The notes: generated by a model not told the origin, from the sequence alone. Positions 1 through 49,649 are shown, counted from the first letter of the stretch. The stretch: 64,000 nucleotides of DNA from Candidatus Gemmiger excrementigallinarum (GCA_019116445.1 DXBP01000019.1:53913-117912), one strand, 5' to 3'. Numbers and translations: made by a program.

Positions 1-398
1 AATGCCTTGACCACCGAAGTCACAAAGGCATCCTGCCCCAGGACCCGGGTCTTGACCTTCTCTGCCACGCCGGAAAAATCCGCGCGGCCTGTGGGGGCCG
101 GCTGGGGCGTGGGGGCGGCCACGGTGCCGCCCAGCAACCCGTCCTGTTTCAGGGAGCGGGTCAGCTCACTGCTCATTTTGCGAACATGGTCGGCGGTTTC
201 GTGCCCGGCTTTCTGTACGGCATCCACTGCGGCAGAGGCCGCTGTCTGGCGCTTGCGGGCATCGTTCAAGGCATCCAGCTGGGCCTGCATCTGCTGTACG
301 GCATCGCTGGCCCGGGTGGAATCCTCGGGGGTGGCGGCGTAGTTCTTGCCACCCATCAGTCCGCGTACCCAGGCGTCATATTGCTCTTCAAGGCTCAT
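1..398 (-). CDS. AAA+ ATPase-like protein, N-terminal part, runs off left window edge
   Basis: Own translation from ATG at 398: MSLEEQYDAWVRGLMGGKNYAATPEDSTRASDAVQQMQAQLDALNDARKRQ...ADFSGVAEKVKTRVLGQDAFVTSVVKA. Open to the window edge; 'VLGQDAFVTSVVKA(F)' resembles the region before Walker A in Clp/AAA+ ATPases. Overlaps the upstream gene by 11 nt. Absent from the ORF track because there is no stop in the window. Confidence 0.6.
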   Translation of the reverse strand, partial: MSLEEQYDAWVRGLMGGKNYAATPEDSTRASDAVQQMQAQLDALNDARKRQTAASAAVDAVQKAGHETADHVRKMSSELTRSLKQDGLLGGTVAAPTPQPAPTGRADFSGVAEKVKTRVLGQDAFVTSVVKA

Positions 399-1551
399 CG
401 TCGTTCTCCCTTTCCGGGTGGGGCAGTTTTACGGTGTAAAAATCTTTCACACTGCATCCTGCGCGGCCGCCGCCTGCGCAGGCACAGGCACATGCGCAGC
501 TGGAAGCACAGGCGCAGGCACAGGTAAAGTGGTGATCGTTATTGCCGCCGCTTCGCCGTCCTACGCCACCGCCGCGGCTGGAACCACCGCCGGGCTGAAA
601 GTTCTTGGGCGGGTCGGTGCGATGATACCCCGGAGGGGGCGGTGCGGTACGGGCACGGCGGATGGTATGCACGCCGTTGGTGTACCAGAACCAGTCGCCC
701 GGGTCGATGCTGCCGCCGAAGCCGCCGCCCCAGGCAGGGGAACGGCCAAAGAGGTTTTTCCAGAGGATAAGCAGAAGCAGAACTGTGAAAAACAATACCA
801 GAAAAAGGTTGGCAAACAGGTCGCTGTAGTCTTTTTGCGGGGCGCCGTAATCCTCGGCGGTCATCTCGGCATCCGCGGCATAGCCTTCGGAATAGGTGAT
901 GGGAACCGTTACATGGACCTTGGCGGCCTGGCCGTGGGTCAGCGGACCGAAATCCCAGGTCAGGTAGTCGCCGTCCACACCGGTATTATCGGCCAAAAAA
1001 CCGTCGCCATTCTTCCAGCGGATCTGCATATCACCCACGCTCAGGTCATCGAACCAGCCGGGGGTAAAGGTGAAGTTGGCGGTGCCGTCGTCATTGCGGG
1101 TGAACAGATGGCTCTGATGCACCGAGAAGGCAAACTGCACGTTGCTCTCGCCGCCGTTTTCGGCGGCCACTTGGGGGGAGTAGTAGCGCCGGGCAAAAAC
1201 GACCTTGGCGTAGCTGCCGCCTTCGTCGGAATACTGCAGATCGGAGATGGTGTCGGTCAGGGGAGTCAGGTCCTCCACGTGGGAGTTTGCCAGACCGATC
1301 TTGACCCAGGAAAGATAATCGGTAACGCCGCCGTCGATGACCTGCCAGTCAATATCATAGGTGATATCGGCGGAACCGTCCTCCCGCAGATCCACGGTGA
1401 CAACATAACTGCGGATGTAGTCCATGTCGCCGTCCTCGGCATAGGGGGCCAGTTCGCTGTCTGCGGCAAAGACCGGCAGTGCCGTCAGCACACAGCAAAG
1501 CAAAGCCGCCAGCCACAAAGCACCGCGGCGCAGCAAAAGTGAATGTTTCAT
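388..1551 (-). CDS. Membrane protein, DUF2207-like N-terminal domain, TM segment, Gly/Arg-rich linker and C-terminal Cys-Ala repeat tail
   Basis: Signal-like N-terminus MKHSLLLRRGALWLAALLCCVLTALPVFA, DUF2207-like extracellular domain, TM 'LFANLFLVLFFTVLLLLILW', tail GGGSSRGGGVGRR...HHFTCACACASSCACACACAGGGRAGCSVKDFY. Start at 1551 chosen over the ORF-track start because of the signal peptide and ATGA overlap with the upstream gene. Confidence 0.75.
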   Translation of the reverse strand: MKHSLLLRRGALWLAALLCCVLTALPVFAADSELAPYAEDGDMDYIRSYVVTVDLREDGSADITYDIDWQVIDGGVTDYLSWVKIGLANSHVEDLTPLTDTISDLQYSDEGGSYAKVVFARRYYSPQVAAENGGESNVQFAFSVHQSHLFTRNDDGTANFTFTPGWFDDLSVGDMQIRWKNGDGFLADNTGVDGDYLTWDFGPLTHGQAAKVHVTVPITYSEGYAADAEMTAEDYGAPQKDYSDLFANLFLVLFFTVLLLLILWKNLFGRSPAWGGGFGGSIDPGDWFWYTNGVHTIRRARTAPPPPGYHRTDPPKNFQPGGGSSRGGGVGRRSGGNNDHHFTCACACASSCACACACAGGGRAGCSVKDFYTVKLPHPERENDDEP

Positions 1552-2936
1552 TGGCAGCCCTCCTGCAGGGGCGTAGTGCCCAGTTGGCAGCGGCGCTCCA
1601 TGGCGGCGCTGGTATTGCGGATAGAACTGCACGCCGGGCTGTGCCAGATGCGGTGCCAGGGCGTGCGCAGCAGATTGCCCAGCCCCGGACCGGAAAGCCA
1701 GCTCTGGCAGGGCAGCACGGTGCCGTCAGGCCCCACCGCCATGTTGGAAAGGCAGGCGCCGCAGCTGGGAATCTGGGTAAAGCCCAGTTCCCGCAAGGTT
1801 TCTTCCGCCAGCCAGCCGGGGCTGGTGAAGTTGATCTCCATGCCGTGAGCAGCTGCATACTCCATGGCGGGGCGCAGCACCGCCACCAGTTCGTCGGGGG
1901 TCAGCCGTTCAGCGCGGCTGGCTTCGGTTTCGGCATTGCCGGCAGGAATCAGACCGCTGCAGGTCAGATACCGGATGCCCAGTTCATCGGCCAGCTGCAC
2001 GGTGGAAAGATAGTCCCGGTTCAGGCTGCACAGCGGGGTGTTCAGGCTGACGTTCAGCCCGGCGGCCAGGGCGTTTTTGATGCCGCCCAGGGTATCGGTA
2101 TAGCCGTCCACGCCTACCAGGGCATTGTGCACGGCAGCATCGGCGGAATAGAAGGTGATCTGCACCGCGTCCAGGCTGGCATTTTTCAGATCTTTGCACA
2201 TGGCGCTGGTCAGCATACGGCCGTTGGTATTCAGCCGGGTCACAAACCATTGGGCAGCCTGCACCAGTTTGATCAGGTCATTGCGCAGCGTGGGTTCGCC
2301 GCCGGTAAAGGTCAGCTGGGGAATGCCTGCGCTGCGGCATTTTTCAATGACGGCCAGCCACTGGTCGGTATCCAGTTCCGGGGCAATGCCCAGCGGCTGA
2401 TTGGCCGCATAGCAGTGCAGACATTTCTGGTTGCAGTGCCAGGCACCGTCCTTCATCATGGAACTGATCATCAGGTCCATGCGGTGAGGGGCGTTCATCC
2501 GGGGAGCATACTCGCCCAGATGCAGGGGCTGTACATGCAGCGGCGGAGTTTCACCCCGGGCTACTGCAAACAGACAATCCAGCATCAGCTGCAGGTCGGA
2601 CTCGATCTGCAGCTCCGGTGTGCGTCGGTATACCTTGTGGGTGGCGGCCACAGCCTGTGCAGTCACGGCGGACCAGTCGGCCTGCGTCAGTTCCTTGCCG
2701 CTCTGGGGATGCAGCGCCTCGATCAGATTGGTCAGCAGGATGGCCCAGCTCACGTTGAGGGGCAGAATGTCCTGGCCGTTGAGAATGGCCACAAAAGGCG
2801 TTTCGCGGTCAGGTTTGTGGCAGGGGATCAGGTGGATGCGCACCACACCGGGGCCGTCGGGGTCCAGGGTCACATGCCGCACACGGGAAAGATGCCCGTG
2901 CAGAAAGGCGTGTTCCGCATAGGTCAGATATTTCAT
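1548..2936 (-). CDS. Radical SAM protein with SPASM-like C-terminal cysteines, putative peptide maturase
   Basis: CNQKCLHC (CxxxCxxC) radical SAM motif, TFTGGEPTLR, and C-terminal CGACLSNMAVGPDGTVLPC...C...C typical of SPASM/twitch domains. Confidence 0.85.
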   Translation of the reverse strand: MKYLTYAEHAFLHGHLSRVRHVTLDPDGPGVVRIHLIPCHKPDRETPFVAILNGQDILPLNVSWAILLTNLIEALHPQSGKELTQADWSAVTAQAVAATHKVYRRTPELQIESDLQLMLDCLFAVARGETPPLHVQPLHLGEYAPRMNAPHRMDLMISSMMKDGAWHCNQKCLHCYAANQPLGIAPELDTDQWLAVIEKCRSAGIPQLTFTGGEPTLRNDLIKLVQAAQWFVTRLNTNGRMLTSAMCKDLKNASLDAVQITFYSADAAVHNALVGVDGYTDTLGGIKNALAAGLNVSLNTPLCSLNRDYLSTVQLADELGIRYLTCSGLIPAGNAETEASRAERLTPDELVAVLRPAMEYAAAHGMEINFTSPGWLAEETLRELGFTQIPSCGACLSNMAVGPDGTVLPCQSWLSGPGLGNLLRTPWHRIWHSPACSSIRNTSAAMERRCQLGTTPLQEGCQ

Positions 2937-2981
2937 CGGGGATGATTCCTCCGCTTGTTACAGAATGGTTAAATTGTAAAA

Positions 2982-3010
2982 AGTATATCATAAATGGCGC
3001 ACAAATACAA
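2982..3010 (-). promoter_or_regulatory. Sigma-A type promoter for the radical SAM operon
   Basis: Minus strand TTGTAT (3010-3005), 17-nt spacer, TATACT (2987-2982), about 45 nt upstream of the start codon. Confidence 0.5.
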
Positions 3011-3045: not shown

Positions 3046-3079
3046 TAAAAAGTGCCCGCCGGAATGTACCCGGCGGGCA
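3046..3079 (-). terminator. Rho-independent terminator after YitT-family gene
   Basis: Perfect 10-bp stem TGCCCGCCGG/CCGGCGGGCA followed on minus strand by CTTTTT. Confidence 0.75.
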
Positions 3080-7649: not shown

Positions 7650-9515
7650 TTACTGGCAGGATTTCACGTTCAGCATCCGGGTGGCATTGAGTACGGCCAG
7701 CACCATCACGCCCACATCGGCAAAGACGGCCCACCACATATTGGCCACGCCTACGGCACTCAGGAACAGGCACAGGAACTTCACGCCCAGGGCGAATACA
7801 ATGTTCTGGTACACGATGGCCATGCACTTGCGGGCAATGCGCATGGCAAGGCCGATCTTGGCCGGATCGTCGTCCATCAGCACCACGTCGGCGGCTTCAA
7901 TGGCGGCATCGCTGCCCAGGGCACCCATGGCAATGCCGATGTCGGCGCGCATCAGTACCGGCGCATCGTTGATGCCGTCGCCTGCGAATACCAGCATCTT
8001 GTCGGCGGGCTTGTGCTCCAGCAGCGTTTCCACCTGGTGCACCTTGTCGGCGGGCAGCAGCCCGGCGTGCACTTCGTCGATGCCCAGTTCCCGGGCTACC
8101 TTGTCAGCCACGGCGGGGCTGTCACCGGTCAGCATAACGGTGCGTACACCCTGGCGGTGCAGGTCCTGCATGGCGGCTGCGGCGGTGGGCTTTTCTTCGT
8201 CGGAAATCAGGATGGACCCCAGGAACTGTCCGTCCCGGGCTACATAGACAATGCTGCCGGCACCGTCATCCGGTGTGTAGCGGATTCCGTTGGCTTCCAT
8301 CAGCCGGGCGTTGCCGGCCAGGACTGCCTTGCCATCCACCAGGGTACGCACACCCTGCCCGGCGATCTCCTGGGCGTCGGCAGCCCGACGGGCATCGGCG
8401 TCAGGGCAGGCATCCCGCAGGCTTTTGCTGATGGGATGGCTGGAAAAACGCTCCGCCAGGGCGGCGGTTTCCAGCAGTTCGGTTTCGGACACCCCGGCGG
8501 CCGGCGTGACGCGGGTCACGGCAAAAACGCCTTTGGTCAGGGTGCCGGTTTTGTCGAAGGCAGCCACCCCGGTATGGGACAGCGCTTCCAGATAGTTGCC
8601 GCCCTTGACCAGGATGCCGCAGCGCGACGCACCGCCGATGCCGCCGAAGAAGGTCAGGGGAATGGAGATGACCAGTGCGCAGGGGCAGCTGATGACCAGG
8701 AAGGTCAGGGCACGCAGCACCCAGACGGTCCACCCGCCGCCCAGCACCAGCGGGGGCAGCACAGCTAATACCAGGGCTGCCAGGCAAACGGCGGGGGTGT
8801 ACCAGCGGGCAAATTTGGTGATGAAGTTTTCCACCTTGGCTTTTTTCAGGCTGGAATTTTCCACCAGGTCCAGGATCTTCGCCACGGTGGATTCATCGTA
8901 GGCTTTGGTGGTGGTAATGCGCAGCAGCCCGTCGTCATTCACACAGCCGCTGATCACATCATCCCCGGGACGCACGGTGCGGGGGCGGCTTTCGCCGGTG
9001 AGGGCGGCGGTGTTCAGCGTGCTCTCGCCGCTCAGCACCCTACCATCGATGGGAACTTTCTCTCCCGGACGCACCACAATGACCGAACCCACGGCCACTT
9101 CATCGGGGTCCACCACCGTAACGCTGCCGTCGGCCTGCTCCAGGTTGGCGCTGTCGGGACGAATGTCCATCAGCTCGCTGATACTGCGGCGGCTTTTGCC
9201 CACGGCATAGCTCTGGAACAGTTCGCCAATTTGGTAGAACAGCATAACGGCCACGCCTTCGGCATATTCGCCGCAGCCCATGGCGCCCACGGTGGCTACT
9301 GCCATCAGGAAGTTCTCATCAAAGACTTCCCCGCCTTTGATGCCCAGCACTGCTTTGCACAGTACATCGTAACCGATCACCAGATAGGGCACCAGCCACA
9401 CGATCAGCTGCCCGTACCACGGCAGGGCGAGAAAATGCAGCGCCACAGCGGCGCACAAAGTCAGTGCCGCGGCCAGAAGAATACGCCGCAGCATCTTTTT
9501 CTGTTTTTTTGTCAT
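7650..9515 (-). CDS. Heavy-metal translocating P-type ATPase (Zn/Cd/Co type)
   Basis: SCPCALVISIP, AAFDKTGTLTKGVF, LTGDSPAVADKVARELGID, FAGDGINDAPVLMRADIGIAMG. Confidence 0.93.
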   Translation of the reverse strand: MTKKQKKMLRRILLAAALTLCAAVALHFLALPWYGQLIVWLVPYLVIGYDVLCKAVLGIKGGEVFDENFLMAVATVGAMGCGEYAEGVAVMLFYQIGELFQSYAVGKSRRSISELMDIRPDSANLEQADGSVTVVDPDEVAVGSVIVVRPGEKVPIDGRVLSGESTLNTAALTGESRPRTVRPGDDVISGCVNDDGLLRITTTKAYDESTVAKILDLVENSSLKKAKVENFITKFARWYTPAVCLAALVLAVLPPLVLGGGWTVWVLRALTFLVISCPCALVISIPLTFFGGIGGASRCGILVKGGNYLEALSHTGVAAFDKTGTLTKGVFAVTRVTPAAGVSETELLETAALAERFSSHPISKSLRDACPDADARRAADAQEIAGQGVRTLVDGKAVLAGNARLMEANGIRYTPDDGAGSIVYVARDGQFLGSILISDEEKPTAAAAMQDLHRQGVRTVMLTGDSPAVADKVARELGIDEVHAGLLPADKVHQVETLLEHKPADKMLVFAGDGINDAPVLMRADIGIAMGALGSDAAIEAADVVLMDDDPAKIGLAMRIARKCMAIVYQNIVFALGVKFLCLFLSAVGVANMWWAVFADVGVMVLAVLNATRMLNVKSCQ

Positions 9516-9551
9516 GGAAAGATGCCTCCGTCCGGCAGGGCAGCGCCTGCG

Positions 9552-9767
9552 TTACAGTTCAATCTCAAAGTCCGGCTCAATCTTTTTGGCGGTCCGCACA
9601 GCCTGCTGCAGAATCTCGTCAAAACGGGCGTCATCGGCCACCAACAGCATCTTCTGGGTCATAAAGCTGACGCTGGCGTCCTCCACACCGGGCAGTGCCT
9701 TGACGGCGGTTTCGATTTTGGCGGCGCAATTGGCGCAATCCACTTCGATCTTGAATTTCTTTTGCAT
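9552..9767 (-). CDS. Stand-alone heavy-metal-associated (HMA) domain protein
   Basis: MQKKFKIEVDCANCAAKIETAVKALPGVEDASVSFMTQKM, CxxC HMA fold, directly upstream of the P-type ATPase. Confidence 0.85.
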   Translation of the reverse strand: MQKKFKIEVDCANCAAKIETAVKALPGVEDASVSFMTQKMLLVADDARFDEILQQAVRTAKKIEPDFEIEL

Positions 9768-48017: not shown

Positions 48018-48689
48018 ATGCAACTCGAACAACAGGAAACTTTTGTCATCCACGGCCCGCAGCTGGAGGTGTTCGGCGAACTGGAAACCAGACTTCCGCC
48101 GCCCGCCAAAAAGCGGCCGGTGGCGGCGTTGGTGCTGGTCGTGCTGGCACTGGTGTCGGTGTTCGGCATCGGTGGTGCACGCCTGAAGGGCGTGCGCAGC
48201 AGCACAGCGCAGATATACAGCGCGCAGCAGGATGAGTACGGCCACAGCATCCAGGGGGATTTTGCGGCCCAGACCGATGCTGCCGCCAGCCTGATCCGGG
48301 TGGCGGGGAACGTGCTGGGCGAGCAGGACGCCGATGTCCTGAATGCCCAGGCGGCGCTGGATGCCTGGAATGCCCAGGCATCTGCGGACCAGCCTGCCGT
48401 GCAGTATCAGCTGAACACAACGCTTTCGGGCGCGGTGGATATTCTGTATACCGCGGCGGCTGACAGCGCCGACAGCAAGGCCAAAGGCCAGCTGGATGAC
48501 TTGTACGATGGCTTCACCTCGGCCCAGGCGACCATCCAGCGGGCAGCGGCCGACTACAATACCCGGGCCGAGTCTTACAACAAAACGGCCGCGGCCTTCC
48601 CGGCGAATGTCCTGGCGGGGCTGTGGGATGCAGGCCCCCTGCAGACCTTCGCACCCGCCGATTTTGCAACGGATACGACAGGAAAGTAA
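48018..48689 (+). CDS. LemA-like membrane-anchored protein
   Basis: N-terminal TM; C-terminal RAAADYNTRAESYNKTAAAFPANVLAGLWDAGPLQTF matches the LemA YN..YN...FP signature. Confidence 0.65.
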   Translation: MQLEQQETFVIHGPQLEVFGELETRLPPPAKKRPVAALVLVVLALVSVFGIGGARLKGVRSSTAQIYSAQQDEYGHSIQGDFAAQTDAAASLIRVAGNVLGEQDADVLNAQAALDAWNAQASADQPAVQYQLNTTLSGAVDILYTAAADSADSKAKGQLDDLYDGFTSAQATIQRAAADYNTRAESYNKTAAAFPANVLAGLWDAGPLQTFAPADFATDTTGK

Positions 48690-49649
48690 ATGATGAAACA
48701 GGAAATGAAGAAACTGCTTCGCCGCACATTGGCGGCTGCTGCGGCGCTGTGCCTGCTGACGGCAGGGGCAACAACGGCGCTGGCGGCACCGGAACTGAAC
48801 CCATATACCGCAGTGAATGATTATGCCAATATCCTCTCTTCGCCAACTGAAAATTATGTAGAGGATATATCGGAAGCGCTGCAGGATACCTGCGGTGCGC
48901 AGATCGGTGTATACACCACCGAGTATATCGGAAATTCCACTATGGAAGGCTACGCCTACGATGTGCTCAACACCTGGGGTCTGGGTTCTGCCGACAAGGA
49001 CAACGGTGTGCTCCTGCTGTTGGTACCGGGGGAGGACAATTATTATGTTATCCGCGGTGCCGGGCTGGAAGCCCAGCTCACCATCCGCAGACTGGGCACC
49101 ATCCTGGACGAGGATATGGAACCGAGTTGGGTTGAACAGGATTACAACACTGGAACACAAAAAACAGTACGAGCTATCGCTGAAGAACTTTGCAGCATCT
49201 ACGGGATTCCGCTCTCGACGCTGGACAATGCAGCTCAGATGCCTTCTCCTCCAGAAAATCAGGGCATGAGCCCCGTGACGGTAGTTCTGATTCTTTTTGC
49301 GGTGTTCCTTGTGATCGCACTGCTGGTCAGCGTTACCCGTCCCCGTGGCCCGCGCCCGCCTCGTGGCGGTGGTGGCGGATTCGGCAGCGGGCTGTTCTGG
49401 TATAGCCTAGGCCAGGCTTCCCGCCCGCGCTATCCCCGGCGTCCGCCGCCTCCGCCGCCCGGCTTCGGCCCGGGACCCGGCGGCTACGGTGGTTACGGCG
49501 GACCCCGTCCCGGTGGAGTGGGAAGATCCCGCCCCGGCGGGTTCGGCGGTCCCCGTCCCGGGGGTGGCTTTGGCGGTGCCCGCCCCGGCGGCGGATTCCG
49601 TCCGGGTGGCGGTTCCAGTCGCGGCGGCGGCGTAGGACGCCGTCACTGA
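48690..49649 (+). CDS. TPM domain protein (YgcG-like) with TM and Gly/Pro/Arg-rich tail
   Basis: VNDYANILSSPTENYVEDISEALQDTCGAQIGVYTTEYIGNSTMEGYAYDVLNTWGLGSADKDNGVLLLL, TM, tail RPGGFGGPRPGGGFGGARPGGGFRPGGGSSRGGGVGRRH. Confidence 0.88.
   Translation: MMKQEMKKLLRRTLAAAAALCLLTAGATTALAAPELNPYTAVNDYANILSSPTENYVEDISEALQDTCGAQIGVYTTEYIGNSTMEGYAYDVLNTWGLGSADKDNGVLLLLVPGEDNYYVIRGAGLEAQLTIRRLGTILDEDMEPSWVEQDYNTGTQKTVRAIAEELCSIYGIPLSTLDNAAQMPSPPENQGMSPVTVVLILFAVFLVIALLVSVTRPRGPRPPRGGGGGFGSGLFWYSLGQASRPRYPRRPPPPPPGFGPGPGGYGGYGGPRPGGVGRSRPGGFGGPRPGGGFGGARPGGGFRPGGGSSRGGGVGRRH

Follow-up and report, generated by a model that had tools for sequence, protein, structure and literature searches.

Radical SAM enzymes with SPASM or twitch domains include the sactipeptide and ranthipeptide maturases SkfB, AlbA, RumMC, and CteB, which are encoded beside their Cys-rich substrates, and in some sactipeptides alanine serves as the thioether acceptor. 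To our knowledge, the described radical SAM peptide maturases serve mostly small secreted peptides. QhpD and the anaerobic sulfatase-maturating enzymes, which are also radical SAM/SPASM enzymes, modify Cys residues of whole proteins, and the His-Xaa-Ser (HxsB/HxsC) and CXXX-repeat systems of NCBIfam combine a repeat-type substrate with one or more radical SAM partners.

The locus studied here shares features with each of these groups. As with the sactipeptide and ranthipeptide maturases, a SPASM/twitch-type radical SAM enzyme is encoded beside a Cys-rich candidate substrate; as with QhpD and the sulfatase-maturating enzymes, the enzyme would act on a whole protein and not on a small peptide; and, as in the HxsB/HxsC and CXXX-repeat systems, a repeat substrate is paired with the enzyme. 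It also differs from them. The proposed substrate is the C-terminal tail of a membrane protein of 310-490 aa, with strict Cys-Ala alternation and no recurring exporter or protease, and all NCBIfam cut-offs for the sactipeptide and ranthipeptide systems are missed. Described RiPP systems use a small precursor with an N-terminal leader, whereas here a membrane protein carries the tail at or near its C-terminus. The substrates of QhpD and the sulfatase-maturating enzymes are not known to include membrane proteins that bear such a tail, and the HxsB/HxsC and CXXX-repeat systems have a different repeat, the HxsC model scoring 55 bits on our enzyme against a cut-off of 268. No published description of a pair made up of a radical SAM enzyme and a Cys-Ala tail was found in the open-licence literature, and no NCBIfam model covers the pair.

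Organization of the locus

The window, that is, the whole 64-kb stretch of DNA that was analysed, belongs to contig C2 of a genome bin of 2.4 Mb (G000), that of a gut bacterium whose nearest named relatives are members of Gemmiger. An initial annotation of the window had described three genes on the minus strand, and our reading agrees with it: a radical SAM enzyme (2936-1548), a membrane protein (1551-388), and an AAA+ protein that starts at 398 and runs past the window edge. Both overlaps it reported are also present, namely an ATGA shared by the stop codon of the enzyme gene and the start codon of the membrane protein gene (1551-1548), which is kept in most relatives, and 11 nt between the AAA+ start (398) and the membrane protein stop (388). 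The promoter-like site that it placed before these genes was not recovered, as a promoter scan returned none on the minus strand; what can be read by eye is a near-match (TTGTAT, 17 nt, TATACT at 3010-2982, with an extended -10). Because the YitT-like gene upstream is closed by a terminator-like hairpin (3079-3053), which divides it from the three genes, it is plausible that these form an independent transcription unit. The features of the locus are as follows.

3053..3079, minus strand: strong terminator-like hairpin, 11 pairs followed by a T run
1548..2936, minus strand: 462-aa radical SAM protein carrying an auxiliary domain of the SPASM/twitch type, the candidate maturase of the tail (PF04055, PF13186, SkfB profile match, orthologues)
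2540..2882, minus strand: conserved N-terminal region of the enzyme, about residues 19-133, aligning with VLIINGSKLIHLN of the sister clade f93
2412..2435, minus strand: CxxxCxxC motif of the enzyme, CNQKCLHC, residues 168-175, with no change at its three Cys in alignments A5 and A7
1587..1763, minus strand: auxiliary Fe-S region of the enzyme, residues 392-450, with Cys 392, 395, 410, 436, and 450, five of five invariant in the Clostridia clade
388..1551, minus strand: 387-aa membrane protein, DUF2207-like and bearing the Cys-Ala tail, the candidate substrate (Pfam, comparison with relatives)
832..1461, minus strand: predicted extracytoplasmic beta-rich domain, about residues 31-240, mostly strands at 44-217 in a low-confidence AlphaFold model, variable in sequence
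751..825, minus strand: predicted single transmembrane helix, residues 243-267 in the model, followed by K/R; hydropathy 2.94 at 245-263
553..591, minus strand: Gly/Arg linker GGGSSRGGGVGRR, the identical 13 residues of which end the TPM protein at 48690-49649
436..522, minus strand: Cys-Ala tail, residues 344-372 (CACACASSCACACACAGGGRAGCSVKDFY), with a core that hardly varies among Clostridia
3..398, minus strand: start of the AAA+ gene, a lineage-specific neighbour, complete at 684 aa in L003 16256-18310

Variations of this layout were seen among relatives. In Gemmiger formicilis MCC627, 305 bases separate the tail gene from the AAA+ gene (L009 7156-7460), which overlap elsewhere. In genome G637, two tail proteins are encoded in tandem before one radical SAM enzyme gene (L063 6782-8709), and at L070 7160-10092 a transposase-like insert (about 8028-9767) splits the tail protein gene and leaves the enzyme gene intact.

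Co-conservation of the radical SAM enzyme and the Cys-Ala tail

The radical SAM identity given to the first gene product was confirmed by a match to PF04055 (E 1.7e-18), and the enzyme has the radical SAM fold with the three invariant Cys of CxxxCxxC. For the SPASM-like part of the name, there is a match to the SPASM domain PF13186 (E 3.5e-8; 34 bits against a cut-off of 21.5), with only five auxiliary Cys conserved in the Clostridia clade. The SPASM-type Cys pattern at the C-terminus is fuller in the enzymes of the sister clades f134 and f93 (alignment A7), and the Clostridia clade has lost part of the auxiliary-cluster Cys that those clades keep. Among solved structures, the enzyme profile matches the sactipeptide maturase SkfB best (E 3.5e-19) and PqqE next. 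No NCBIfam model reaches its cut-off with the enzyme (best 91.5 bits against 500), which leaves it below the curated level of described RiPP families, and the same holds for distant members; the top-scoring models, NirJ2, AhbD, and PqqE, all haem or cofactor enzymes, stay far under their cut-offs. The N-terminal region is perhaps a substrate-recognition domain; it matched no recognition domain in Pfam or PDB. An RRE was also considered at this position and could not be demonstrated, the Pfam and PDB comparisons giving no match and the resemblance to an RRE (PqqD-like) being limited to the motif INGSKLIHLN. With mean pLDDT values of 56 and 50, the structure models were too poor for a fold search.

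The membrane protein had been called DUF2207-like. A weak resemblance to DUF2207 (PF09972) is indeed present; at 16.5 bits it lies under the gathering cut-off of 24.4, and relatives score 14-15 bits. No NCBIfam model matches the tail proteins. The tail follows the pattern CACACASSCACACACAGGGRAGCSxKDF, and the eight Cys ascribed to it are present; in the runs counted among relatives there are 5 to 9 Cys per tail. The 14 residues CACACAGGGRAGCS remain 86-100% identical while the outer domain diverges, falling to 18-38% identity in distant relatives. The tail core, 13 residues that are nearly invariant over 33 distinct DNA sequences, is held at the protein level with free synonymous change, because these sequences draw on both codons for Cys and all four for Ala. 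A microsatellite or DNA repeat artefact is excluded by the same observation. A search for CxCxCxC outside these tails found none in 484,000 residues (ORFs of at least 150 codons, 60 loci).

To learn about the distribution of the pair, profiles of the two proteins were searched separately. Of 391 Clostridia genomes, the tail profile (A1) matched 11, which belong to 8 genera. The enzyme profile (A5) found 10 of the 391, all of them within the same 11, and gave no other match at E 1e-60 or better; since A5 was built partly from enzymes of these genomes, the informative part of this result is that the enzyme is absent wherever the tail is absent. In the eleventh tail genome (G754), the contig starts within the enzyme gene, and the C-terminal end that remains immediately precedes the tail gene. 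In G592 and G631, tail and enzyme are on different contigs through fragmentation, the tail of G631 reading GGSRSCACACACACAGGGRVGCSERGYQ at the contig edge. Were the genomes independent, the chance of this co-occurrence would be about 1e-21 by genome and 1e-14 by genus (8/223), values that serve only as guides, the genomes being related. In a sample of the family, 15 of 15 genuine tails lie beside the enzyme, and in every Gemmiger relative fetched with queries for the three proteins the enzyme and the tail protein are adjacent, mostly with the ATGA overlap. Tail matches in G188 and G134 (E 0.007-0.009) were discarded as chance, there being no homologue of the three proteins nearby.

A phylum-wide search with the enzyme profile only yielded 13 further genomes from three other families, none of which had been used in the profile. 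The tail gene is next to the enzyme gene in 12 of them, and the thirteenth has an assembly gap at the site. The co-conservation that the initial annotation had named as its test is therefore seen in the same 11 of 391 Clostridia genomes and in 12 of 12 testable sister-clade loci. The radical SAM enzyme and the Cys-Ala tail are co-conserved partners that recur in many Bacillota, and the enzyme has an adjacent, co-conserved Cys-rich substrate candidate, as described RiPP maturases do.

Predicted topology and proposed modification of the tail

In the tail protein, a signal peptide is followed by the outer beta domain, one transmembrane helix, and the tail (low-confidence model and hydropathy), and this order predicts that the tail is cytosolic, on the inner side of the membrane. 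Radical SAM enzymes work in the cytosol, the same side as the predicted tail. In three genomes, the tail protein is fused to a TPM domain through a second hydrophobic segment (L147 3364-5439, L149 3443-5284, L158 873-2687). As the TPM protein that is not fused (L146) carries a lipoprotein-like signal of its own, the TPM domain of the fused proteins is predicted to lie outside and the tail inside, between the two transmembrane segments. The Cys-Ala repeat is itself hydrophobic, so that partial contact with the membrane is possible. Some relatives (L038, L061, L062, L065) carry a zinc-ribbon-like CxxC...CxxC between the transmembrane helix and the tail, with a weak Pfam match.

We propose that the radical SAM enzyme, which shares a message with its substrate and is translationally coupled to it, would work on the cytosolic side, its target being the C-terminal tail of a membrane protein that crosses the membrane once. 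The enzyme would probably read the segment GGGRAGCSxK(D/N)F that follows the repeat and would place its modifications on the Cys and Ala that alternate in the repeat. Thioether cross-links joining the sulfur of Cys to nearby carbons of the backbone or side chains are the most likely chemistry. This would give a protein with an outer beta domain and, on the inner membrane face, a rigid knob held together by cross-links. Modification of the tail is the best account of the data because SkfB is the best structure, the Cys-rich substrate is adjacent, and the pairing is exclusive. We consider it probable that the two genes encode a dedicated enzyme-substrate pair in which the enzyme modifies a cytosolic tail, with a probable role in the envelope and with the AAA+ protein as an optional addition. 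The wider proposal, a widespread and so far unrecognized protein-modification system of the Bacillota in which the enzyme turns the tail into a cross-linked ladder with a structural or sensing function and not into a secreted peptide, is more tentative, and we give it slightly less than an even chance. Several observations count against the explanation that we prefer: the N-terminal region of the enzyme matches no known recognition domain, the Clostridia clade has only five SPASM-type Cys, the substrate is a whole membrane protein where a small precursor peptide would be usual, haem and cofactor enzymes are what the nearest NCBIfam models describe, and both structure models are of low confidence.

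In a different reading, the unmodified tail serves at the inner face as a centre for metal, Fe-S, or redox chemistry, and the radical SAM enzyme makes or uses a cofactor of the same pathway. Alternating Cys are also good metal ligands, the best-scoring NCBIfam models are those of cofactor enzymes, and the CxxC pairs of some relatives resemble a zinc ribbon. The exclusive and adjacent pairing is nevertheless that of a maturase with its substrate, SkfB is the best solved relative of the profile, and an invariant Ala between every Cys is seldom needed by metal sites; we regard a metal centre as unlikely.

Still less probable, in our judgement, is that the membrane protein is an outsized precursor whose tail, once modified, is released by cleavage and leaves the cell as a RiPP. 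Neither a protease nor an exporter recurs beside the pair in the neighbourhoods viewed, the tail lies in the middle of the protein in the three genomes where a second transmembrane segment and a TPM domain follow it, and its near-constant sequence is unlike that of most secreted antimicrobials. In its favour are the combination of a radical SAM enzyme with a Cys-rich substrate, which is usual for RiPPs, and the f93 clade, where the tail SSCACACACACASSGGCT ends almost at the stop codon.

The AAA+ gene and the envelope context

The AAA+ gene, which the initial annotation had advised completing from flanking sequence, was completed from the contig and encodes 684 aa. Its product has a CbxX/SpoVK-type AAA domain (PF00004 and AAA_lid_6, both found) and, upstream of it, a ClpB/Torsin-like AAA-type region with a Walker A lacking Lys (GPEGTGRHY). 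It thus carries the AAA domain of the CbxX/SpoVK/EccA-type ATPases, but it scores under the equivalog cut-offs (spoVK 299/423, EccA 240/467, CbbX 237/459), and a gene of this type is not a constant part of the radical SAM/tail system.

Full-length relatives of the AAA+ protein were found in many Oscillospiraceae genomes. Among the loci examined in Gemmiger, g21, and g58, nearly all have the gene close downstream of the pair. It stands alone, with neither the enzyme nor the tail protein, in 20 of 20 other Oscillospiraceae loci fetched, and the loci examined from outside the Oscillospiraceae have the pair without it, as does G043, which belongs to this family. In 5 of the 20 solo loci (L115, L116, L120, L125, L126), the gene directly follows prfC, which lies upstream in 14 of 22 three-gene loci, with the pair, often together with a YitT-like gene, in between, and which also has this upstream position in the genome of the window; the arrangement suggests that the pair was inserted, or lost, at a single site. 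A tree of 35 AAA+ proteins places the three-gene state among solo genes as two changes. From the solo loci, the prfC position, and these two changes, the AAA+ gene is a resident Oscillospiraceae gene that lies downstream of the pair in two lineages and is not part of the system, although its product may assist the system in those two lineages. A core function of the AAA+ protein in the system at large was rejected on the same grounds.

This bears directly on the proposal of the initial annotation, according to which the AAA+ protein would assemble a surface-displayed cross-linked or metal-binding domain. The tight overlap of the three genes in Gemmiger and the frequent downstream position of the AAA+ gene speak for it; the predicted topology (model, hydropathy, and TPM-fused relatives) places the tail inside the cell and led us to reject its surface exposure, and the AAA+ gene and the pair each occur without the other, the three-gene state arising among solo genes on the tree. 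We hold that proposal to be very improbable. Scarcely credible is a plain hydrophobic, membrane-inserting tail with the enzyme as an incidental neighbour: the repeat reaches about 2.1 Kyte-Doolittle over 19 residues in some relatives, yet most tails are too short for a membrane span, hydrophobicity does not need strict Cys-Ala alternation, and the co-occurrence with the enzyme is perfect across distant clades.

For the dedicated enzyme-substrate pair that we favour, the sister clades offer a context. In f134 and f197, the gene order is radical SAM enzyme, DUF2207-like tail protein, TPM protein, and, where the stretch reaches, LemA, and the tail ends ...SCACACACAGG(R/G)GAGC. In f93, the tail belongs to a membrane protein of 474-497 aa whose gene precedes that of the enzyme, and a secreted protein follows, with a weak match to the toastrack domain DUF4097 (E 0.0047, under the Pfam cut-off). 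The window itself has a LemA-like gene (48018-48689, named by eye) and a TPM-domain gene (48690-49649, identified by Pfam) about 46 kb from the pair. The TPM protein ends GGGSSRGGGVGRRH, a motif that it has in common with the linker before the Cys-Ala tail (85% DNA identity over 41 bases), so the LemA-TPM pair of the window carries the GGGSSRGGGVGRR motif, as the tail protein does.

One paper (PMC11237479) counts TPM and toastrack proteins among the partners of the PSP envelope-stress network. The resemblance to this network lies in the sister clades, where TPM and LemA genes come directly after the tail gene or TPM is fused to the tail protein. The main text of that paper, by comparison, contains neither "radical" nor "LemA" (0 occurrences each), and no PspA gene was noted beside the radical SAM/tail loci. 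Because TPM, LemA, and possibly toastrack proteins are neighbours in the sister clades, the system probably takes part in envelope maintenance or stress sensing; the neighbours that suggest the envelope-stress link are those of the other clades only.

Our findings indicate that a conserved candidate substrate of a radical SAM enzyme is the predicted inner tail of an integral membrane protein, present in several Bacillota classes that include common gut genera, and that enzyme and tail were never apart in the samples examined. If the tail is cross-linked, this would be a new use of radical SAM chemistry in the cell's own envelope, and the system would give a functional handle on the poorly understood LemA, TPM, and DUF2207-like membrane proteins.
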